Assembly: GCA_017400025.1 (NCBI GenBank)
Contig: JAFQAF010000100.1
Coordinates: forward strand, 1 to 11,275
Length of the DNA stretch: 11,275 bases
Reading direction: 5' to 3'
Source: Oscillospiraceae bacterium
GTDB taxonomy: Bacteria; Bacillota_A; Clostridia; Oscillospirales; Ruminococcaceae
Shown here: positions 1-11,039 of the stretch, in pieces
Layout: every line of letters begins with the position of its first letter
How positions within the stretch are numbered: the stretch's first letter is position 1
The notes under the pieces: model-generated
Database searches by the model: none
The model's input: the letters and a program-made list of their open reading frames with translations, nothing else
Told to the model about the DNA's origin: nothing
Position numbers and translations under genes: made by a program

Positions 1-939
<939 letters not shown>

Positions 940-946
940 TCACCTC

Positions 947-2773
947 TTACTCTACTGTAACTGATTTGGCAAGATTCTTTGGTTTATCTATATCACAGCC
1001 ATTTTCCTTTGCCATATAATATGCCAGCAGCTGCAATGGTACAATTTCTACAGGTGCAGCAAGATAATCATCCATTTCTGGCATAAAAATAATATCATCT
1101 GCTATTGTAACTATTTTTGAATTATCCTTTTCAGCTAAAGCCAATACCTGGGCGCCTCTGGCCTTGACTTCTATGATATTGCTTATAGTTTTTTCCATTA
1201 TAGCTTTATTGCAGCAAAGTGCTACCACAGGCTGATAATCGTCTATAAGTGCGATTGTGCCGTGTTTAAGTTCTCCGGCTGCATAAGCTTCTGCATGGAT
1301 ATATGAAATCTCTTTCATTTTCAGTGCTCCCTCAAGCGCAACTGCATAATCAGTATTTCTTCCTATAAAGAACATAGAGTTGTGTATATGATACTTTCTG
1401 GCAAGGTTAGGAATTGCAGAGTTCATACTTAAAGCCTGCCGTATAAGCTGTGGTATTTTCTGTATTGAAGCAAGTGTTTTAGCATAATCTGATGGTGTTA
1501 TTCTGCCTGACCTGTCAGCTATATACAGAGCCAGCAGATATAACACGGTAACCTGTGTGGTATAACCTTTTGTGGTAGCTACAGCAATTTCAGGGCCTGC
1601 CCATGTATAAATAACATAATCTGCCAGCTTTGCCACTGTGCTGCCCACAACATTAACCACTGACAAAACTTTTGCACCGAGTTTTTTACATTCTTTCATT
1701 GCAGCAATAGTATCGGCTGTTTCCCCTGACTGAGAAAGCACAATAACCAATGTTCTGTCATTAATAAGTGGCTGACTGTATCTCAATTCACTTGCAAGCT
1801 CGGTGATCACAGGAATTCCTGTAAGTTTCTCAAGGGTATATTTACCTGCACAGCCTGCATAATAGGCAGAACCACAGGCGGTAATCACTATTCTGTTTAT
1901 CTTATTAATGTCTTCATCAGTAAGATTGATTTCGTCAAAGCATACTCGGTCATCCTTTATTCTTGGGGAGAGTGTGTCCCTGACCGCTCTGGGCTGCTCC
2001 ATTATTTCTTTAAGCATAAAATGGTCATACCCATCTTTCTCAGCAGCGCGGATATCCCACTCGATTCTGTTTACCGGTTTATTTTTTGGTTTGCCTGCAA
2101 AATCAAATATTTTCACGTCATCAGGAGTTATTTCTGCAAAATCTCCGTCATCCATATAGATAACATTTTTTGTATGCTGTACCAATGCAGTCACATCTGA
2201 AGCAAAATAATTTTCGCCCACACCAAGACCAATAATAAGAGGACTGGCTTCTCTTACAGCAAAAACCTTTTCAGAATAATCAGAACAGATAACCCCCAAC
2301 GCATAACTGCCACTGAGTCTGGCTGCAGTTTTAAGTAAGGCAATCTTAACATCGCCTGTATAGTACATTTCCAGCAGATGCACGATAACTTCTGTATCTG
2401 TCTGACTTTCAAATTCGTATCCTTTTTTTACAAGTTCTTCTTTCAAAGACATATAGTTTTCAATAATGCCATTGTGCACAACTGCAAACTTTCCGTCATT
2501 GCTGGTATGTGGGTGGGCATTTATATCTGTAGGGGCACCATGCGTTGCCCAACGGGTATGTCCGATACCTGTAAAACCGGGAAGATTTTCTCCGTTATCT
2601 GTTTTTTCGCAAAGAGCGGATATTCTGCCGGCTGTTTTGGAAACAAACAGTTTTTTGTCATTTATTACTGCTACACCTGCAGAATCATAGCCACGGTATT
2701 CCAGCTTTTTCAGTCCGTCAAGCAATATGGGGGCAGCATTTGCTCTACCTGTATATCCAACTATTCCGCACAT
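947..2773 (-). CDS. glmS: Glutamine-fructose-6-phosphate aminotransferase (isomerizing), 608 aa
   Basis: GlmS converts fructose-6-phosphate and glutamine to glucosamine-6-phosphate and glutamate, the entry step to UDP-GlcNAc, peptidoglycan and teichoic acid precursors. The protein starts MCGIVGYTGR, so Cys2 becomes the N-terminal nucleophile of a class II (Ntn) glutaminase. HTRWATHG (72-79) and NGIIENY (101-107) are the glutamine-site motifs. Two SIS sugar-isomerase domains follow (TACGSAYYAG near 300; VLSQSGETADT near 350), and the C-terminus ends in the canonical CDIDKPKNLAKSVTVE. Length is typical. The ribosome binding site GGAGG (2781-2785) sits 7 nt from the ATG. The gap to guaA is only 39 bp, too short for a glmS ribozyme, so this copy is not controlled by one in the usual leader position. 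It is placed between guaA and pyrG, both also glutamine amidotransferases. Confidence 0.97.
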   Translation of the reverse strand: MCGIVGYTGRANAAPILLDGLKKLEYRGYDSAGVAVINDKKLFVSKTAGRISALCEKTDNGENLPGFTGIGHTRWATHGAPTDINAHPHTSNDGKFAVVHNGIIENYMSLKEELVKKGYEFESQTDTEVIVHLLEMYYTGDVKIALLKTAARLSGSYALGVICSDYSEKVFAVREASPLIIGLGVGENYFASDVTALVQHTKNVIYMDDGDFAEITPDDVKIFDFAGKPKNKPVNRIEWDIRAAEKDGYDHFMLKEIMEQPRAVRDTLSPRIKDDRVCFDEINLTDEDINKINRIVITACGSAYYAGCAGKYTLEKLTGIPVITELASELRYSQPLINDRTLVIVLSQSGETADTIAAMKECKKLGAKVLSVVNVVGSTVAKLADYVIYTWAGPEIAVATTKGYTTQVTVLYLLALYIADRSGRITPSDYAKTLASIQKIPQLIRQALSMNSAIPNLARKYHIHNSMFFIGRNTDYAVALEGALKMKEISYIHAEAYAAGELKHGTIALIDDYQPVVALCCNKAIMEKTISNIIEVKARGAQVLALAEKDNSKIVTIADDIIFMPEMDDYLAAPVEIVPLQLLAYYMAKENGCDIDKPKNLAKSVTVE

Positions 2774-2812
2774 AAATTAACCTCCGATTAAAAATACTAT
2801 ATTTATATATCA

Positions 2813-4348
2813 TTATTCCCACTCCACTGTTGCCGGGGGTTTAGAGGTTATATCATATACAACCCTGGCAACCTGGGGAATTTCATTTGTAATTCTGCCG
2901 CTGACCTTTTCAAGCAGTTCATATGGCAGCTTTGTCCATTCAGCAGTCATAAAATCATCAGTTGAGACGGAACGCAGGGCCATTACATAGCCGTATGTTC
3001 TGTCATCGCCTTTGACACCTACACTGTGCATATCTGTGAGCACAGCAAAATATTGACTGGCAATTTTCCTGTATTCAGTATCATCAATTTCCTGTCTGAA
3101 TATTTCATCTGCAATGCGAAGTATATCCAACTTCTCCCTGGTTATCTCACCTATAACTCTTACAGCAAGACCGGGACCCGGAAATGGCTGTCTCCAAATC
3201 AATTCAGCCGGCATACCCAGCTGTGTTCCCAACCGGCGTACTTCGTCTTTGAACAAATCCCTTAATGGCTCTACTATTTCATCAAATGCAATGATATCAG
3301 GCAGGCCGCCTACATTGTGATGACTTTTTATCACAGCTGAACTTCCAAGCCCGCTTTCGATAACATCAGGGTATATTGTGCCCTGTGCCAAAACATGAAT
3401 TTTGCCCAGCTTTGCAGATTCTTCTTCGAAAACACGGATAAATTCTTCACCGATTATCTTTCTTTTTTGTTCAGGCTCTGTTATTCTTTTCAGCCTTGAT
3501 AAAAATCTTTCCTCTGCATTCACTCTGATCAGATTCATATCAAATTTTTCTTTAAATATTTTTTCTACAAGGTCTGCTTCGCCTTTTCTCAACAGACCAT
3601 GATCCACAAACACACATGTCAGGTTGTGTCCTATTGCCCTGTGGAGAAGAATCGCTGCCACAGATGAGTCCACACCACCTGAAAGAGCCATAAGAACTTT
3701 TTTGCCTTTCAGTTTTTCTTTATAATGTTCAACAGAGCTTTCTGCAAAGCTGTCCATTTTCCAGCTTGCAGTGCATCCGCAGATTTCAAAAAGGAAATTG
3801 TGAAGAAGCTGTCTGCCATATTCTGTATGTGTAACTTCGGGATGAAACTGTACAGCATACAGCTTTCTGTCCTCGTCAGCCATAGCTGCACATGGGCATT
3901 TATCAGTTACAGCAATAATGTCAAAGCCTGTCGGCGTCTTACTGATAAAATCCGTATGGCTCATCCAGCATACACTCTGCTGTGGAATATTTCCAAACAG
4001 CTTGCTGTTCTTTGCATAAACAACTGTTTTACCATATTCACTGCTGTTTTCAGCACTTTTAACCTCCCCGTCTGACATATACGCCATAAGCTGCGCACCA
4101 TAACATATACCCAATAACGGAATACCTGCTTTAAGAATTTCAGGGTTGTAATGAGGTGATGCGGAATCGTAAACACTGTTTGGACCACCGGTAAAAATAA
4201 CACCTTTATATCCCGTTTCTATGATTTCTTCTACGGTTATTTTGTTATAGGCTTTTATTTCTGCATAAACCTGCTGCTCACGCACACGGCGTGCAATCAG
4301 CTGGTTATACTGACCACCAAAGTCAAGTACAAGTATTTTATCTGTCAT
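2813..4348 (-). CDS. guaA: GMP synthase (glutamine-hydrolysing), 511 aa
   Basis: GuaA aminates XMP to GMP using ATP and the amide nitrogen of glutamine. The single chain has the two expected parts. An N-terminal class I glutamine amidotransferase domain carries nucleophile Cys82 in GICYGAQ and the His169/Glu171 pair in QFHPEV. An ATP pyrophosphatase domain carries the PP-loop SGGVDSS (223-229). It is followed by the C-terminal dimerisation domain, with [19 protein letters not shown] and the usual PPATVEWE end. Length fits the family (about 510-525). Start: ATG at 4348 with GGAG (4354-4357) 5 nt upstream. It lies 14 bp after purB and 39 bp before glmS. Together with PurA/PurB, the operon covers both the AMP and GMP arms from IMP, but guaB (IMP dehydrogenase) is not in this window. 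Confidence 0.97.
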
Positions 4349-4362
4349 AAAAACTCCAAAAA

Positions 4363-5778
4363 TTATAAATTGATTTCAACGGAAGCTGCTGTTATTCCAT
4401 CCAGCAAAGGTTTCAGTTTTATCAGGTATTCTTCCACCTGCTGTGTACAGCGTCCGATGTACAATTCCGGCCTGAGAATATCCCTCATCTGTTCTTTTGT
4501 CAGCCCAAAGTTCTTTTCAGCTGCCAGCGCAGAAAGCAAATCCCATTTTTCACCGTTTTTCATTTTCTCTGTTGCATCCATTGAGCAACGGCGTATAATT
4601 TCGTGTATCTGCTGCCTGTCCTTGCCCTGTTTTACCGCTTCCATCATAAGATTTTCTGTAGCGATAAAAGGCAGGTATTCTTCCACAGTTTTTTGAATTA
4701 TTTTCCGGTTTACACGAAGGCCTGATGTAACATTCTGTGCAAGACGCAGAATTGCATCTGCACACAGGAAACCTTCCGGCAATGAGATTCTGCGATTGGC
4801 AGAATCATCCAATGTTCTTTCCAGCCACTGTGCGGATGCCGTCATAGCCCCATTGGCTGCATCTGCCATCAGGTATCGTGACAGAGAACAGATTCTTTCA
4901 CATCTCATAGGATTGCGCTTGTAAGCCATAGCAGACGAGCCAACCTGATTGTCTTCAAAAGGTTCTTCCAGCAGTCTGTCATGCTGTAAAATCCTTATAT
5001 CATTTGCCATACGGTAACAACTCTGTGCTATTGCTGACAGTGCATTAAGTATTCTGCTGTCTGTTTTTCTTGGATAAGTCTGTCCACACACATCAAACAT
5101 TTTGTCAAAACCGAAATCAGATGCAATCATACGGTTCATTCTGTCTGTTTTTTCAGTGTCACCGCCAAAAAGCTCTGCAAAGCTGGCCTCTGTTCCTGTT
5201 GTTCCTCTGCATCCAAGAAACTTTATATTTTCAAGAACATAATCTATTTCTTCTATATCTGAAATGTAGTCCTGTATCCACAGGGTGGCTCTTTTGCCAA
5301 CCGTAACAAGCTGTGCAGGCTGATAGTGCGTATAACCAAGAGTAGGCATTGACTTGTATCTGTCTGCAAAATCAGCAAGGTTTACGACAAGCTGCAAAAG
5401 TTGGCCACGGATATACTTCAATGCATCACGATAGATTATCAGATCTGCATTGTCTGTTACATAACAGCTGGTTGCTCCAAGATGTATGATCCCCGCGGCA
5501 GATGACGCTGCCTGACCATAGGCGTATATATGTGCCATAACATCATGTCTCACCTGCTTCTCCCTGTCCTTTACACAGTTATAATCTATATCTTCTATAT
5601 GTTTTTCCAGTTCCTCAATCTGTGATGTTGTTATTGGCAGACCACAGTTCATCTGTGCTTTGGCCAGGGATACCCACAGTTTTCGCCATGTCTGATAGCG
5701 GGTATCAGCTGAAAAAAGTTTCAGCATATAGTCCGAGGCATAACGTGAAGCAAGAGGGGATTCATATCTGTCTGTCAT
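4363..5778 (-). CDS. purB: Adenylosuccinate lyase, 471 aa
   Basis: PurB removes fumarate twice in purine synthesis: from SAICAR (the PurC product) to give AICAR, and from adenylosuccinate (the PurA product) to give AMP. The sequence shows the fumarase/aspartase superfamily pattern: RHDVMAHI (77-84), the [11 protein letters not shown] motif with the catalytic-region His151, and the signature [11 protein letters not shown] (280-290), which carries the flexible-loop serine. The form with N-terminal [15 protein letters not shown] and about 470-480 residues is the long Firmicutes type. Its ATG overlaps the purA stop in an ATGA arrangement, which favours translational coupling. GGAG (5787-5790) lies 8 nt upstream, inside purA. 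The PurC, PurA, PurB order puts the two aspartate-adding enzymes beside the lyase that serves both. Confidence 0.97.
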
Positions 5779-7067
5779 TCTGTAATCTCCTTTTTTCTTA
5801 CAATAATGCTGTCGCGTTCCGGACCGACTGAAATATATGTTACAGGGCAGTTTATTTTTTCTTCAATAAACTGAATGTAGCTTCGTGCATTCCGTGGCAG
5901 GTCTTCCCAGCTGCGGATATGAGAAATATCACATTTCCACCCCTCCATATATTCAATCACAGGTTTCGCTTCTGCCAGCGCTGCAGGGAAAGGAAACTCA
6001 TCTGTAAATTCTTCATTTATATAGTAATGTGTACATACCGGTATTTTGTCCATATAACCGAGAACATCCAGTTTTGTAAGTGCTATTTCTGTGGCGGCCT
6101 GAACCTGCACGCCATACCGGGTAGCCACTGTATCAAAGGCACCTACACGGCGTGGTCTGCCAGTTTTTGCACCATACTCTTCGCCCGCTTCTCGCAGGTC
6201 ACTGGCTTCATCTCCGTGCAGTTCGCTGATAAATGGCCCTTCACCCACACAGGTGGAATATGCTTTGACCACACCAATGATATCATCAATTTTTACACCC
6301 GGTGCACCTGCACCCACCGGTGCAAAAGCTGCCGTTGTGTTTGATGATGTGGTATATGGATATATTCCGCAATTCAGGTCACGCAACGAGCCTAACTGGG
6401 CTTCAAACATAATTTTTTTATCTTTTTTCAGCGCGTCTTTCATAAATGCAGCTGTATCGCAGATAAAAGGCTTGATTTTTTCGCAGTAATCCTTTATCCA
6501 CATATCCAGCATTTCCATAGTATACGGCCTGGCCCCATATACATTTACAAGAGTAAGATTTTTCCATTCCAGTAAATCCGCAAGATGATTTTTCAACTGG
6601 TCCGGGTAAAACAACTCTCCTGCCATAACAGTCTTTTTGGCATATTTGTCTGAATAGAACGGAGCTATCCCCTGCTTGGTGGAACCGTATTTTTTATCTG
6701 CAAGTCGCTGTTCTTCAAGAGCATCCAATTCTCTGTGCCATGGCATAAGTAACGATGCCCTGTTGCTGATTTTCAGATTTTCCGGAGTAATATGGACACC
6801 TTTTTCTCTTATGCTTTCAATTTCAAGCCACAGATTTTCAGGATCAAGTGCCACTCCGTCCCCCAGAATATTTACAACACCTTTTCTGAAAATACCTGAC
6901 GGAATAAGATGAAGAGCAAATTTGCCATATTCATTTATAACTGTATGGCCAGCATTTCCGCCCCCCTGATAGCGTACAACAACATCATATTTTTCTGTCA
7001 GCAAATCCACCATTCTGCCCTTGCCTTCATCGCCCCAGTTGATACCTACAATAGCGCAGTTTGACAT
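5775..7067 (-). CDS. purA: Adenylosuccinate synthetase, divergent clostridial-type subfamily, 430 aa
   Basis: PurA joins IMP and aspartate using GTP to form adenylosuccinate, the first committed step to AMP. The GTP-binding loop WGDEGKG (11-17) includes the expected catalytic Asp13, and GNAGHT (38-43) supplies His41. The protein departs from the textbook E. coli/Bacillus form. QWGDEGKGK is NWGDEGKGR, GIGPAY is GIAPFY (133-138), and the GAQG...DIDHGTYP IMP-site block reads AQLGSLRDLNCGIYP (223-237). From memory, NWGDEGKG, GIAPFYSDKYAK and QLG occur in a subfamily common in Clostridia, in which DPDHG usually replaces the DLNCG seen here. TTSSNTT, KAYSTCVGEGPF, TGRPRR (302-307) and TKLDVLGY are retained, so activity is expected. 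Ribosome binding site AAAGGAG (7075-7081), 7 nt spacing. It starts 21 bp after purC and its end overlaps the purB start by 4 bp. Confidence 0.95.
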   Translation of the reverse strand: MSNCAIVGINWGDEGKGRMVDLLTEKYDVVVRYQGGGNAGHTVINEYGKFALHLIPSGIFRKGVVNILGDGVALDPENLWLEIESIREKGVHITPENLKISNRASLLMPWHRELDALEEQRLADKKYGSTKQGIAPFYSDKYAKKTVMAGELFYPDQLKNHLADLLEWKNLTLVNVYGARPYTMEMLDMWIKDYCEKIKPFICDTAAFMKDALKKDKKIMFEAQLGSLRDLNCGIYPYTTSSNTTAAFAPVGAGAPGVKIDDIIGVVKAYSTCVGEGPFISELHGDEASDLREAGEEYGAKTGRPRRVGAFDTVATRYGVQVQAATEIALTKLDVLGYMDKIPVCTHYYINEEFTDEFPFPAALAEAKPVIEYMEGWKCDISHIRSWEDLPRNARSYIQFIEEKINCPVTYISVGPERDSIIVRKKEITE

Positions 7068-7088
7068 ATTATCTCTCCTTTGCAGTAT

Positions 7089-7802
7089 TTATATATGTTT
7101 TTCAAGGCGTGACATAACTTCGGTATAAGCGGCTTCCACATCTCCAAGGTCTCGACGGAAACGGTCTTTATCCAGCTTTTTGCCTGTGGATGTGTCCCAC
7201 AGTCTGCTGGTATCCGGGCTGATTTCATCAGCCAGAATAATAGCTCCGTCGGATGTTTTACCGAATTCCAGTTTAAAATCCACCAGTGTGATGCCGCAGC
7301 CTGACCAGAATTTTTTAAGGAAATCGTTTGTTTTAAAAGCATAGTTTTTTATTATTTCAATCTCATCAGCAGTAATCAGCTTAAGTGCAACTGCATGATA
7401 ATCATTAATCAGCGGATCACCAAGATCGTCATTTTTATATGAAAACTCTATTACAGGACTTTCAAATACCAACCCTTCTTCTGTACCGTATCTTTTTGAA
7501 AAGGAACCGGCTGCAATATTTCTTACAATAACCTCAAGAGGTATAATAGAAACCTTTTTAACCAATGTCTCCCTGTCAGAAAGCTGTTCTGCAAAATGGG
7601 TAGGAACTCCCTGTTTTTCAAGCATTTCCATAAAAACATTGCTCATTTTATTATTGATAATGCCTTTCCCAGCGATAGTGCCTTTTTTTAATCCATTAAA
7701 GGCTGTTGCATCATCTTTATATTCAACAATAAGAAAATGGTCATCATCAGTAGCAAACACTTTCTTTGCCTTACCTTCATATATCTGCTTTCTTTTTTCC
7801 AT
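7089..7802 (-). CDS. purC: SAICAR synthetase (phosphoribosylaminoimidazole-succinocarboxamide synthase), 237 aa
   Basis: PurC couples CAIR and aspartate with ATP to form SAICAR in de novo purine synthesis; PurB then releases fumarate to give AICAR. Both family signatures are visible: IPLEVIVRNIAAGSF (87-101) and LVDFKLEFG (173-181). The N-terminal YEGKAKKVF and the ILADEISPDTSRLWD block (189-203) are also present. The start MEKRKQIYEGK at 7802 was chosen because it gives the usual length (about 235 aa) and has GAGG (7811-7814) 8 nt upstream. A longer in-frame start from a GTG at 7871 would begin inside a hairpin and add 23 residues with no family match. It follows glnA by 107 bp and precedes purA by 21 bp. 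No convincing promoter was found in the gap, so it may be transcribed by readthrough from glnA or from a promoter inside glnA. Confidence 0.96.
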   Translation of the reverse strand: MEKRKQIYEGKAKKVFATDDDHFLIVEYKDDATAFNGLKKGTIAGKGIINNKMSNVFMEMLEKQGVPTHFAEQLSDRETLVKKVSIIPLEVIVRNIAAGSFSKRYGTEEGLVFESPVIEFSYKNDDLGDPLINDYHAVALKLITADEIEIIKNYAFKTNDFLKKFWSGCGITLVDFKLEFGKTSDGAIILADEISPDTSRLWDTSTGKKLDKDRFRRDLGDVEAAYTEVMSRLEKHI

Positions 7803-7837
7803 TCGTTTTACCTCATTCAAAATCTCAAAAACTTTGA

Positions 7838-7884
7838 TATACAGGCTGCGGAGGAAAGGGTTGGATATCACCGCAGCCTATATA
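7838..7884 (-). promoter_or_regulatory. 14-bp stem-loop in the glnA-purC gap
   Basis: AGGCUGCGG and CCGCAGCCU (arms 7871-7879 and 7843-7851 read on the minus strand) form a perfect 9-bp GC-rich stem. One position further out is a G-U pair only when read as minus-strand RNA, then UAUA/UAUA adds 4 more pairs. The loop is 19 nt and pyrimidine-rich. The stem ends 12 nt before a run of five U, so it is a poor intrinsic terminator. It could partly attenuate glnA readthrough, stabilise a processed 3' end, or be an mRNA leader element of purC. The wobble pair suggests that the structure matters in RNA of this strand. Function is inferred. Confidence 0.5.
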
Positions 7885-7886
7885 TG

Positions 7887-7909
7887 AAATATCTGTCAGA
7901 CAGATATTT
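7887..7909. repeat. 23-bp perfect palindrome directly after the glnA stop codon
   Basis: AAATATCTGTC and GACAGATATTT flank a single central base, giving 11-bp arms immediately adjacent to the glnA stop codon (7910-7912). As RNA it would fold to a 9-bp, AT-rich stem with a 5-nt loop. On the minus strand no U run follows, so it is not a standard terminator for glnA. On the plus strand it is followed by TTTTTACATTTT, but no plus-strand gene ends there. It may be a protein-binding site or a 3'-end stabiliser. Confidence 0.45.
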
Positions 7910-10015
7910 TTACATTTTAACACTGTACAGCAAATCAGAATAATCAGGCATTGGCCAGTATTCCTTCGCAGTAAGCTTTTCAGCTTTGTCACACGATGCT
8001 CTCAGACTGTCCATGGCAGGTATCACTGTATCTTTTACGGCAAAAGCTTCAGTTTTTACATCTTCGATGCCGTGTATCGCTTCAAGCCGTTGGCCGAGAG
8101 CGGAAACACAACTGGATATATCATCAGTAAGTTTTGACAGCTTTTCAACCAGCTCTGTTTCAAACAGACACTGAAGTGATGGGTCAACAGCCTTTTTTGC
8201 CAGCACAGAGTCAGACAATTCTGATGTGTATCTGCATACCGCAGGAATAATAGCGCCTGCAGCCATCTTCATCATTGTTCTGGCTTCAATACTTACAGTG
8301 TTTATATATTTTTCAAATTCCACTATATAACGTGACTTAAGTTCAGATTCTGTGAAAATCCCCATAGATGTGAGCATATCCACATTTCTCTTTTCCAACA
8401 GGTAAGGTATACATTCAGGTGTAGTGCGCAGATTGAGCAGAGCACGTTTTTCGGCTTCTTCCATCCACTGTTCCTTGTAGCCGTCCCCGTTGAAAATTAT
8501 TCTTCTGTGAGTTGTCAATGAATCCCTTATCAGCTCTCTTACAGTTTCTTCAAATATTATTTCGCTGTCTGCAGCTTCAAGGCGGTCTGCAAAAACTTTC
8601 AGACTTGCCGCTACAGCACTGTTAAGCATAATGTTTGCAAAACCGATGTTTACAGATGAGCCAAGCATACGGAATTCAAACTTGTTGCCTGTAAATGCAA
8701 ACGGAGATGTTCTGTTTCTGTCTGTGTTATCCTTTATGATTTTCGGAATTGCTGCAACACCCAGTTCCACAGGTGTCGGAACAGGTTTTGTATATTTTTC
8801 TTTTCTGCATATGGAGTCAACTATTGCTTCCAGTTCATCTCCCAGGAATACAGAAAGTATAGCAGGCGGTGCTTCCTGTGCACCAAGGCGGTGGTCATTG
8901 TTGGCGTGTGCAACGGACAGGCGCAGCAAAGACTGATAGTCATCTACCGCTTTTATAACCGCACACAGAAATGTCATAAACTGCAGGTTATCCTGTGGTG
9001 CGTCACCCGGTGACAGCAAGTTAATTCCCGTGTCTGTAACCAATGACCAGTTGTTGTGTTTGCCACTGCCGTTCATACCTGCAAACGGTTTTTCGTTCAG
9101 CAGACACACCATATCGTGTCTTGCAGCTATTTTTTTCATCAGCTCCATTGTAATCAGGTTGCGGTCAGCAGCAAGGTTTGCCCTTGTATATACAGTTGCC
9201 AGTTCGTGCTGTGCCGGAGCAACTTCATTGTGTTCGGTTTTAGCGAAAATTCCCAGCTTCCACAGTTCTTCATTAAGCTCGTTCATAAATGCAGCAACTC
9301 TGGGTTTTATATCACCGTAATAGTGGTCGTCCAATTCCTGACCTTTTTCCGGCTTTGCTCCGAAAAGTGTTCGGCCTGCATTGATAAGATCCGGACGTTT
9401 CTCATATAATTTTTTATCTATCAGAAAGTATTCCTGCTCAGGACCCACCATTGAATAAACGCTTTTTGTTGTTTTATCACCAAATATTCGTAAAATTCTC
9501 AATGCCTGTTTATTCAGTGCCTCCAGAGAACGCAGCAAAGGTGTTTTATAATCAAGTGCTTCTCCTGTATAAGAACATAAAACAGCAGGTATATATAAGG
9601 TTTTATCTTTTATAAACGCATAGGATGTAGGGTCCCATATTGTATATCCCCTGCCTTTTGCTGTATCTCTCAGTCCACCGGATGGAAAAGATGACCCGTC
9701 TGCTTCTCCTCTTATCAGGTCTTTACCTGAAAACCGAAATATAGCACTGTTTTCAGATGTCGGTGAAATGAAACTCTCATGCTTTTCAGCTGTAAGGCCG
9801 TTCATCGGCTGTGACCAATGTGTATAATGGGTTGCACCATTACTTACAGCCCAGTCTTTCATTGCCTGTGCAACATCATCTATTATGGAATTATCAAGTT
9901 CAACACCTTCATCAATTGTTTTCTTTAAAGACTTATACACTTTCCGTGGCAGTCTTACTTTCATGGCCTTGTCGTCAAAAATGTGCCAGCCAAATAATTC
10001 AGGTACAGTTTTCAT
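7910..10015 (-). CDS. glnA: Glutamine synthetase type III (GSIII), 701 aa
   Basis: This enzyme condenses ammonia and glutamate to glutamine with ATP, the main entry of nitrogen into biosynthesis. Length (about 700 aa versus about 450 for GSI) and motifs mark the type III (GlnN) family: THWSQPMNGLTAEKHESF (63-80), GPEQEYFLID (191-200), KTEHNEVAPAQHELA (259-273), GMNGSGKHNNWSL (313-325) and GAQEAPPAIL (378-387). A long helical C-terminal region typical of GSIII follows. Start: MKTVPELFGW at 10015, with AAAGGAGG (10023-10030) 7 nt upstream. An in-frame ATG 28 codons earlier lies at the predicted transcription start and inside the leader hairpin, and is rejected. It is first in a series leading to glutamine-using guaA, glmS and pyrG, and divergent from an ANTAR regulator. 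Control probably acts through the leader hairpin. The symbol glnN is also used for this type. Confidence 0.97.
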   Translation of the reverse strand: MKTVPELFGWHIFDDKAMKVRLPRKVYKSLKKTIDEGVELDNSIIDDVAQAMKDWAVSNGATHYTHWSQPMNGLTAEKHESFISPTSENSAIFRFSGKDLIRGEADGSSFPSGGLRDTAKGRGYTIWDPTSYAFIKDKTLYIPAVLCSYTGEALDYKTPLLRSLEALNKQALRILRIFGDKTTKSVYSMVGPEQEYFLIDKKLYEKRPDLINAGRTLFGAKPEKGQELDDHYYGDIKPRVAAFMNELNEELWKLGIFAKTEHNEVAPAQHELATVYTRANLAADRNLITMELMKKIAARHDMVCLLNEKPFAGMNGSGKHNNWSLVTDTGINLLSPGDAPQDNLQFMTFLCAVIKAVDDYQSLLRLSVAHANNDHRLGAQEAPPAILSVFLGDELEAIVDSICRKEKYTKPVPTPVELGVAAIPKIIKDNTDRNRTSPFAFTGNKFEFRMLGSSVNIGFANIMLNSAVAASLKVFADRLEAADSEIIFEETVRELIRDSLTTHRRIIFNGDGYKEQWMEEAEKRALLNLRTTPECIPYLLEKRNVDMLTSMGIFTESELKSRYIVEFEKYINTVSIEARTMMKMAAGAIIPAVCRYTSELSDSVLAKKAVDPSLQCLFETELVEKLSKLTDDISSCVSALGQRLEAIHGIEDVKTEAFAVKDTVIPAMDSLRASCDKAEKLTAKEYWPMPDYSDLLYSVKM

Positions 10016-10022
10016 AATTAGT

Positions 10023-10030
10023 CCTCCTTT
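10023..10030 (-). promoter_or_regulatory. glnA ribosome binding site
   Basis: AAAGGAGG is a full anti-Shine-Dalgarno match, 7 nt from the ATG at 10015. It fixes the start of glnA and lies 17 nt beyond the leader hairpin, outside it. Control by that hairpin is therefore more likely to be at termination than by hiding the ribosome site. Confidence 0.85.
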
Positions 10031-10047
10031 AATACGAATAAACAACA

Positions 10048-10093
10048 AAAGGCAATGGCGCCTTTCACATAAGTGAAAGACGCCATTGCCTTT
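10048..10093 (-). terminator. 21-bp leader hairpin of glnA, terminator-like
   Basis: On the minus-strand transcript, AAAGGCAAUGGCG (10093-10081) pairs with CGCCAUUGCCUUU (10060-10048). A U-G pair then continues into CUUUCAC/GUGAAAG around a UUAU loop, giving 21 continuous pairs. The one non-Watson-Crick pair is a wobble only in RNA from this strand. A moderately U-rich tail (UUUUGUUGUUUAUU) follows, then the glnA ribosome site. This is the layout of a leader terminator. The U tract is interrupted by G, so termination may be partial and conditional. Its 5' half can instead form the hexaloop hairpin listed separately. Confidence 0.7.
10076..10093 (-). promoter_or_regulatory. Candidate ANTAR-target hexaloop hairpin (P1) in glnA leader
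   Basis: As RNA, AAAGGC-AAUGGC-GUCUUU folds to a 6-bp stem (3 A-U, G-C, G-U, C-G) closing a 6-nt loop with A at position 1 and G at position 4. Those loop bases define the RNA targets of ANTAR antiterminators such as EutV. Forming it sequesters the 5' arm of the 21-bp hairpin, so the two folds exclude each other. A second 6-bp stem, AAAGGC-GCCAUU-GCCUUU (10065-10048), sits 10 nt downstream, but its loop lacks A1 and G4. The stem, loop and exclusivity are visible in the sequence. Binding by the ANTAR protein encoded at 10402 is inferred. Confidence 0.6.
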
Positions 10094-10102
10094 ACGCATC
10101 GG

Positions 10103-10131
10103 ATTATACAGCTGTTTTTAAATTTTGTCAA
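10103..10131 (-). promoter_or_regulatory. Strong sigma-A-type promoter for glnA
   Basis: TTGACA (10131-10126) and TATAAT (10108-10103) are both perfect consensus hexamers with a 17-bp spacer, reading toward glnA. An A-rich tract upstream (minus-strand AAAAAAAATCTTAACAAAA) could act as an UP element. The predicted start is near 10094-10098, so the transcript would begin 1 to 5 nt before the hairpin. Such a strong constitutive-looking promoter suits control after initiation. Confidence 0.9.
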
Positions 10132-10401: not shown

Positions 10402-10983
10402 ATGATTGAAAAAAAACGCATGTACAGTATGTTGATAGTGTCTACCGTGGCTAATTTCAGTAATGCTATTATACCTCTTTTACCGGATGGCGTATTCAAC
10501 CCCATTGACAGTGTACATTCTATTGGCAGCGCAAGAAAAGCTATAGATGAAAAAAAATATGATATAGTAATCATAAATAAAACCAATGATGATTTTGGTG
10601 TGAGGTTTGCTATAGATATAAGTGTAAATTGGAATACTGTGGTTTTGCTTATTGTCAACAATGACGTTTATGCAGATATAACAGGCAGAGTAACAGAATT
10701 TGGTGTTTTTACACTGTCCCGTCCTGTTTCAAAAGGGACTATGTCCACAGCATTAAGCTGGATGGCCAGTGCCAGAGAGCGTGACCGTAAAAAAGAACAA
10801 AGCGAACAGTCAGCAGCAGACAAACTTGAAGAAATACGTGTTATAAACCGCGCCAAATGGATTCTGATTGGTGAAATGAATATGACCGAAGAACAGGCCC
10901 ACAGACATATTGAAAAACAGGCTATGGATATGTGTAAAAGCAAGAAAGAAATTGCAGAAAGTATAATCAAAACCTATACATAA
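10402..10983 (+). CDS. Pseudo-receiver/ANTAR-domain RNA-binding regulator, 193 aa
   Basis: ANTAR proteins bind paired hexaloop hairpins in nascent mRNA and prevent termination. The C-terminal part (about 135-192) is a clear ANTAR domain: INRAKWILIGEMNMTEEQAH (149-168), then IEKQAMDMCKSKKEIAESII, matching the family pattern of RAK, small-helix TEEQA and AM...IAE.II. Residues 122-145 are charged and probably the usual coiled-coil linker. The N-terminal 120 residues have the strand/helix rhythm of a response-regulator receiver but lack its active site. The acidic pair after strand 1 is Ser-Thr (14-15), the phospho-acceptor position after DIVII is Asn59, the strand-4 Thr/Ser is absent, and the usual Lys before Pro108 is Arg107. 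It is thus unlikely to be phosphorylated. Ribosome site AAAGGAGG (10387-10394), 7 nt from ATG. It lies divergent from glnA and is probably its regulator, perhaps responding to glutamine or GS state. Confidence 0.88.
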   Translation: MIEKKRMYSMLIVSTVANFSNAIIPLLPDGVFNPIDSVHSIGSARKAIDEKKYDIVIINKTNDDFGVRFAIDISVNWNTVVLLIVNNDVYADITGRVTEFGVFTLSRPVSKGTMSTALSWMASARERDRKKEQSEQSAADKLEEIRVINRAKWILIGEMNMTEEQAHRHIEKQAMDMCKSKKEIAESIIKTYT

Positions 10984-10999
10984 TTTCAAATTAATCTTA

Positions 11000-11039
11000 A
11001 AAAAGCAACGGCAGAGTATTCTCTCTGCTGTTGCTTTTT
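11000..11039. terminator. Intrinsic terminator after the ANTAR gene, bidirectional
   Basis: AAAAAGCAACGGCAGAG (11000-11016) pairs with 11023-11039 around the 6-nt loop TATTCT, a 17-bp stem that includes one G-U pair when read as plus-strand RNA, ending in TTTTT. It starts 16 bp after the ANTAR stop codon. Read on the minus strand the same element ends in six T and would also stop the convergent gene that ends at 11079. Confidence 0.88.

Follow-up and report, generated by a model that had tools for sequence, protein, structure and literature searches.

A candidate one-hexaloop ANTAR attenuator before glnA and other nitrogen genes in Clostridia

The RNA targets of the ANTAR proteins EutV, NasR and AmiR are described with two hexaloops, and for EutV deletion of hairpin P1 abolished induction, while changing any A1 or G4 (the first and fourth letters of the loop) lowered it (PMC3369931). 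In the account given with the EutV-RNA structure, the dimer grips one hexaloop at a time, the minimal motif is redefined as one hexaloop, P1 is retained as a recruitment hairpin, and the role and extent of single-hexaloop motifs are left to further work (Walshe 2022; PMC8934654). The ANTAR protein NitR is reported to induce the glutamine synthetase and glutamate synthase (GS/GOGAT) genes of Clostridium saccharobutylicum under nitrogen limitation (PMC6316151), so that ANTAR control of these genes under this limitation exists in clostridia. Covariance searches from 2012 predicted ANTAR sites, in part before glutamine and glutamate synthase genes (PMC3369931), and actinobacterial ANTAR RNAs have been predicted by search as well (PMC8164766). 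As described there, both searches demanded a dual stem-loop, and one-loop sites would therefore escape them. Our searches of an open-access library gave no description of one-hexaloop leaders in Clostridia, older subscription papers (e.g. Stutz 2007, on NitR) being outside this scope, and in these searches “single hexaloop” occurs together with ANTAR only in PMC8934654. Here we analyze the leader of glnA, which encodes a type III glutamine synthetase (GSIII), in an 11,275-nucleotide stretch of DNA from an Oscillospiraceae bacterium (contig JAFQAF010000100.1; “the window” hereafter). Sequence comparison makes it likely, in our judgment, that this leader is an ANTAR antitermination attenuator that works through one 5′-terminal hexaloop.

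The leader lies on the minus strand and begins with a sigma-70 promoter that matches the consensus at 12/12 positions (TTGACA-17-TATAAT; 10103..10131), and from this spacing alone transcription is predicted to start at 10099-10095. The original prediction held that the RNA can adopt two competing folds, and both sequence and folding bear this out. The first is a 6-bp hairpin, AAAGGC[AAUGGC]GUCUUU (10076..10093), with its 5′ strand at 10093-10088, a loop carrying A1 and G4 at 10087-10082, and its 3′ strand at 10081-10076; the sequence, the folds of partial transcripts and the relatives described below all point to it as the putative ANTAR site and antiterminator. The second is a 21-bp terminator-like hairpin with a UUAU loop (10048..10093), whose 21-nt arms are 95% complementary under strict pairing and which has the most base pairs of any terminator-like site in the window. 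Its U-rich tail lies at about 10050-10035, and a glnA ribosome binding site, AGGAGG, can be read at 10023..10028. The entire hexaloop hairpin is contained in the 5′ arm of the 21-bp hairpin and both folds use a common 5′ strand, which confirms that forming the short stem uses up the arm that the long one needs.

The RNA from 10030 to 10101 folds at -39.2 kcal/mol (z -8.91), and none of 200 shuffled sequences was equally stable. The isolated hexaloop hairpin folds at -3.5 kcal/mol compared to -36.5 kcal/mol for the long hairpin, and thus the terminator, unaided, outcompetes the hexaloop. When the growing transcript is folded, the hexaloop dominates at lengths of ∼22–30 nt (26–34 nt from the earliest of three assumed starts), with a closing-pair probability of 0.90–0.99; at 38 nt this probability is at most 0.02, the hexaloop is gone and the terminator arm is already starting to pair. 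An Rfam scan of the window, with E values up to 10, returned 14 matches, all under the gathering score and none of ANTAR type; these sub-threshold matches include microRNA-like ones on the long hairpin.

For comparison we used 100 relatives of G001, the genome nearest to the window, 96 of which have a GSIII match. A total of 110 leaders from 81 genomes (30 loci and 80 fetched) were analyzed, or 111 with the window, leaving out the lowest-scoring long GSIII matches, mostly from the nearest genus. A promoter-like site scoring at least 10/12 is present in 71 of the 111 leaders. Among those 71, a stem of at least 4 bp with a 6-nt loop stands near the start in 44, and 35 of the 44 loops have A1 and G4; shuffled leaders give a mean of 15.8 such stems (maximum 29) and of 1.25 with A1/G4 (maximum 4). 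The 35/44 count is free of any choice of loop letters, though a promoter was required. For the remaining comparisons, 124 hexaloop sites were selected by a stem of at least 4 bp, closed by a C-G pair and with AA.G in its loop, of which 57 lie before GSIII genes (some leaders have more than one) and 67 before other genes. Overlap of the hexaloop with a strict terminator is seen at 120 of the 124, compared to 3–8 once the DNA behind is shuffled, a controlled count that superseded a looser one of 123/124. Across these 120 terminator sites, the terminator 5′ arm covers on average 94% of the hexaloop 3′ strand.

The stem also covaries. Over 92 distinct 18-mers there are 146 two-sided changes versus 52 in shuffles, and the covariation score is 0.579 versus 0.268, with slid versions of the stem at 0.08–0.26. 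Stem pairs 1 and 2 are fixed by the search pattern, while pairs 3 outward are free of stem choice, and pairs 3 and 4 are formed in 105/112 and 103/112 sites, respectively. The hexaloop recurs in 38 leaders of a second set of 79 taken from before GSIII genes; 33 of the 38 also have a strict terminator, and 29 have a promoter-like site in addition. This set is not fully independent of the first, as L255 seems to be the contig of L005. Several leaders contain two attenuators in series, with one hexaloop apiece. The leaders of relatives therefore keep A1/G4, the covarying stem and the overlapping terminator, and the comparison that could have overturned the original prediction leaves it standing. 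An unregulated 5′ stabilizing hairpin or a fixed terminator, with no link to ANTAR, would account for a long hairpin of such stability at the 5′-end of the transcript. Hairpins at this position can protect messages. Such an explanation has scarcely any likelihood in our view, as it leaves unexplained both why the loop letters stay constant while the stems vary and why the element keeps company with ANTAR genes, as set out below.

The same hexaloop attenuator is found before GSIII in L266, L305, L319 and L334, contigs of metagenome-assembled genomes labelled Spirochaetales, Spirochaetaceae or Treponema, which reflects either horizontal transfer or mislabelled bins. The eut region L340 (G242) has two one-hexaloop terminator sites, TTTAGAC[AAGGGC]GTTTAAA and TGAC[AATGGC]GTCA, the latter upstream of a frame that by eye resembles eutA.

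The original prediction called the hexaloop ANTAR-type, and this stands for its short stem, its A1/G4 loop and its overlap with a terminator, while the second hexaloop of published targets is lacking. The distance from the -10 box to the loop has a median of 15 nt in 99 sites (7–27 nt were allowed), and the base of the stem lies no more than 13 nt past the -10 box in 91 of these 99. In the window leader it lies 9 nt downstream. The stem is thus predicted to start at about +3 to +5, in the window as elsewhere, and a transcript with that start has no space upstream for a hairpin such as P1. Second A1/G4 hexaloops occur upstream at 10 and downstream at 8 of the 124 sites, compared to 11.0 and 10.5 in shuffles, and are therefore not in excess. 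Two hairpins with a short linker, as expected of an ANTAR target, were thus not recovered above the shuffle level at the 124 sites, in a search that had not been validated on a genuine dual site. The near-fixed position of the loop at the 5′-end and the absence of an excess of second hexaloops lead us to propose antitermination through a single hexaloop.

The element accompanies ANTAR genes. Among the 81 genomes with leaders, a hexaloop lies within 300 nt before GSIII in 43 of the 59 that have an ANTAR gene and in 1 of the 22 that lack one. A whole-genome search with a promoter-hexaloop pattern gave 134 matches in 62 ANTAR-positive genomes versus 6 for reversed-pattern controls, and 12 versus 9 in 38 ANTAR-negative genomes. 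Taking one genome per genus, the pattern is present in 49/55 ANTAR-positive and 8/24 ANTAR-negative genomes; for the nearest genome's genus alone the counts are 4/4 and 1/12, respectively. A class-wide sample of 243 genomes gave 104/131 and 21/112. Per-genome numbers for the whole-genome, per-genus and class-wide counts were entered by hand from tables, and because the genomes are related the tests across them are not independent, although the genus-level and within-genus counts agree in direction. In 32 of 61 genomes, a single contig carries both GSIII and an ANTAR gene no more than 15 kb away from it.

The original prediction of a switch specific to GSIII is not borne out, since the same element precedes a wider set of nitrogen genes in relatives. 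From 146 pattern matches we hand-picked 80 that do not lie directly before GSIII genes already covered, leaving out some further non-GSIII matches; all but one of the 80 (in G046) come from ANTAR-positive genomes. A stem of at least 4 bp is present in 67 of these 80 further sites, and in 58 of the 67 the first downstream frame is assigned to the metabolism of ammonium, glutamine, glutamate, the aspartate family or nucleotides. This putative regulon comprises 19 glutamate-synthase-type amidotransferases, 10 ammonium transporters, six pyrG, three each of purA, asnA, gdhA and type I glutamine synthetase (GSI), two gltB, and one each of purF, asnB, carA, purC, purB, argD, dapF, an LL-diaminopimelate aminotransferase and an N-acetyl sugar amidotransferase. 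The remaining nine frames are unassigned or unrelated and include an ATP synthase A subunit and a chemotaxis receptor. NCBIfam or Pfam scans were made for 22 of the downstream proteins and the others were named by their blastp cluster; individual assignments can be wrong, as some frames begin several hundred bases away (784 nt for purB of L242). The ammonium transporters at L187 and L198 carry a C-terminal fusion to a P-II signalling domain.

The gene that would supply the regulator is on the plus strand at 10402..10983, divergent from glnA and its leader, as the original prediction had stated. It encodes a 193-amino-acid protein with an ANTAR domain at residues 139–189 (PF03861, E 2e-15, 56.8 bits, with a curated cut-off of 27.3), which matches the Rv1626 and EutV chains in the PDB. 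The N-terminal part is receiver-like, with Asn at the usual acceptor place; the phospho-acceptor Asp of EutV-like two-component ANTAR regulators is thus absent from the window protein. We aligned 31 ANTAR proteins, namely that of the window and 30 whose loci were at hand, which is a subset of all ANTAR matches, and at the acceptor position 22 of the 31 (the window included) have Asn, four have a gap and one has Asp. A phosphorelay is therefore unlikely, and input through a partner protein or a metabolite is the more likely arrangement. Positions that contact RNA in EutV, in the numbering of the EutV paper, were transferred through the alignment, and among the hexaloop contacts Lys149 and Glu160 are kept in 31/31 and Met172 in 30/31, whereas Tyr164, Arg168 and Asn173 are mostly replaced.

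We propose that, by default, the leader would fold into the long hairpin and RNA polymerase would halt at the U-rich tract before glnA, as the fold energies suggest. The first ∼25 nt would form the 6-bp hexaloop hairpin before the terminator was complete, and the loop would be gripped through A1 and G4 by an ANTAR protein in its active form, for which the divergent gene is the most likely source. With the loop held, the terminator 5′ arm would be unavailable, and polymerase would read on through glnA and, probably, through the purine and pyrimidine genes downstream. The loop would be the first structure out of the polymerase, and more bases would be needed to complete the terminator, giving the protein time to bind. 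The 5′-terminal position and the long terminator may in this way supply the time that the P1 recruitment hairpin is proposed to give EutV. By analogy with NitR, the signal would be nitrogen or glutamine status.

Several observations weigh against antitermination by an ANTAR protein at a single hexaloop. The requirement of EutV for both hexaloops would favor a canonical dual-hexaloop target in which P1 is on a longer transcript or takes a form that our criteria miss, and the published ANTAR targets are indeed presented as dual, with P1 essential for EutV (PMC3369931, PMC8164766). The search for second hexaloops also lacks a working positive control: in six eut loci that were to serve as one, nine A1/G4 hexaloops have a terminator and two of these a close partner, and as both partnered hexaloops are in one stretch (L338) not tied to a eut leader, the control failed. 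In L240, an amt leader of G044, a second A1/G4 hexaloop (ATGC[AACGAA]GCAT) follows after a 5-nt linker; of the 124 sites this one comes nearest to a dual hexaloop, possibly by chance. An upstream P1 does not fit between promoter and stem in the great majority of sites, however, and second hexaloops are no more frequent on either side than in shuffles, so that a dual target is distinctly unlikely.

Further points concern the match between sites and regulator. In 16 of the 59 ANTAR-positive genomes no such hexaloop lies before the GSIII genes examined, and in L026 (G049) and L077 (G047), where an ANTAR gene is present, the loop is GAAGGC, with A1 changed to G and the rest intact. Three EutV contacts are altered among the 31 aligned proteins (Tyr164, which stacks on G4, to His in 30, Arg168 to Glu in 26 and Asn173 to Asp in 27). 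Class-wide, the ANTAR-negative genomes retain a small excess of 31 matches versus 11 controls, which may reflect missed ANTAR genes or another reader, and G051 has no detected ANTAR gene, yet one of its GSIII leaders (L020) carries the hexaloop; the other (L103) has the loop TTCGGC. The excess and the G051 leader are what one would expect if another RNA-binding regulator or a ligand read the attenuator and the ANTAR gene merely accompanied nitrogen genes. We find this highly improbable, given that ANTAR binding is known to depend on A1 and G4 (PMC3369931) and that the association with ANTAR genes holds both across genera and inside the genus of the nearest genome.

The last point concerns the sign of control, as the regulon mixes assimilation genes with glutamine-consuming ones and its sign under nitrogen limitation is not obvious. 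The glutamine users pyrG, purF, carA and asnB, which one would not obviously expect to be induced when nitrogen is limiting, would sit more easily with a hexaloop that is bound by the ANTAR protein in order to promote termination, or with another action such as an effect on RNA stability. On the other hand, almost nothing of the hexaloop 3′ strand is left outside the terminator 5′ arm in any of the 120 terminator sites, so that a hexaloop held in place should prevent termination, and the known ANTAR systems are described as antiterminating (PMC3369931, PMC8934654). We therefore regard termination or another action as very unlikely, and retain ANTAR binding with antitermination as the probable sign.

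In the window, glnA (7910..10015, minus strand; Pfam GSIII_N, 3.5e-71) is followed on the same strand by purC, purA, purB, guaA, glmS and pyrG (1..7805, named by NCBIfam), with pyrG cut by the window edge. The open reading frames from purC to pyrG are set closely behind glnA, with gaps of 13–104 nt or overlaps, and minus-strand promoter-like sites between these genes score 9/12 at best. Such spacing, with only weak internal promoter-like sites, means that a single attenuator may act here on genes controlled separately in relatives, and purC to pyrG are probably transcribed onward from glnA as a single seven-gene operon. The glnA-purC gap (7806-7909, minus strand) contains three adjacent hairpins (-36.1 kcal/mol, z -6.66), one of them a perfect palindrome, AAATATCTGTCTGACAGATATTT, with no clear U-run, and these may have a role in processing, stability or differential expression; with them in place, the single operon stays at the level of probability. 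Behind the ANTAR gene, AAAAAGCAACGGCAGAGTATTCTCTCTGCTGTTGCTTTTT at 11000-11039 (plus strand) resembles by eye the terminator of that gene. The window GSIII is 94–95% identical to the G001/G002 copy, 44–50% to the remaining GSIII proteins of the genus of these two genomes, and 60–64% to many GSIII proteins of other families; the glnA-ANTAR pair may have been horizontally acquired.

Beyond this locus, we lean, with rather less assurance than for the attenuator itself, toward a large class of one-hexaloop, 5′-end ANTAR attenuators in Clostridia. In this class, the transcript start and the long terminator would replace P1, the reader would be an ANTAR subfamily with a degenerate receiver and His in place of Tyr, and the regulon would span ammonium uptake, GS, GOGAT and glutamine users, with the window presenting one switch that probably governs a seven-gene operon leading from glutamine to nucleotides. 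Descriptions of ANTAR antitermination give it two hairpins, and the EutV structure published in 2022 left open why P1 is needed if the dimer binds only one loop. The leaders described here look like natural one-loop versions placed before terminators, which makes the question of P1 directly testable. If the proposal is correct, it would also provide regulon-wide nitrogen control for uncultured gut and rumen Clostridia, whose regulators are mostly guessed.

Compared with the described systems, the leaders closely resemble EutV/eutP of Enterococcus faecalis, together with NasR/nasF and AmiR/amiE, which are presented as having a short stem, a six-base loop with A1 and G4, overlap with an intrinsic terminator, and nitrogen-related genes downstream (PMC3369931). 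They differ in that the EutV, NasR and AmiR targets have two hexaloops with a constrained linker, both of them needed, whereas here there is one, at the predicted 5′-end; and EutV is phosphorylated, whereas the proteins here mostly lack the acceptor Asp. The sites predicted in 2012 and the actinobacterial ANTAR RNAs are alike in their nitrogen genes, their A1/G4 loops and their many sites per genome (PMC3369931, PMC8164766). NitR, as reported, is likewise a clostridial ANTAR protein acting on GS/GOGAT genes (PMC6316151). The EutV dimer of Walshe 2022 is likewise bound to one hexaloop (PMC8934654), and here such single sites precede terminators.
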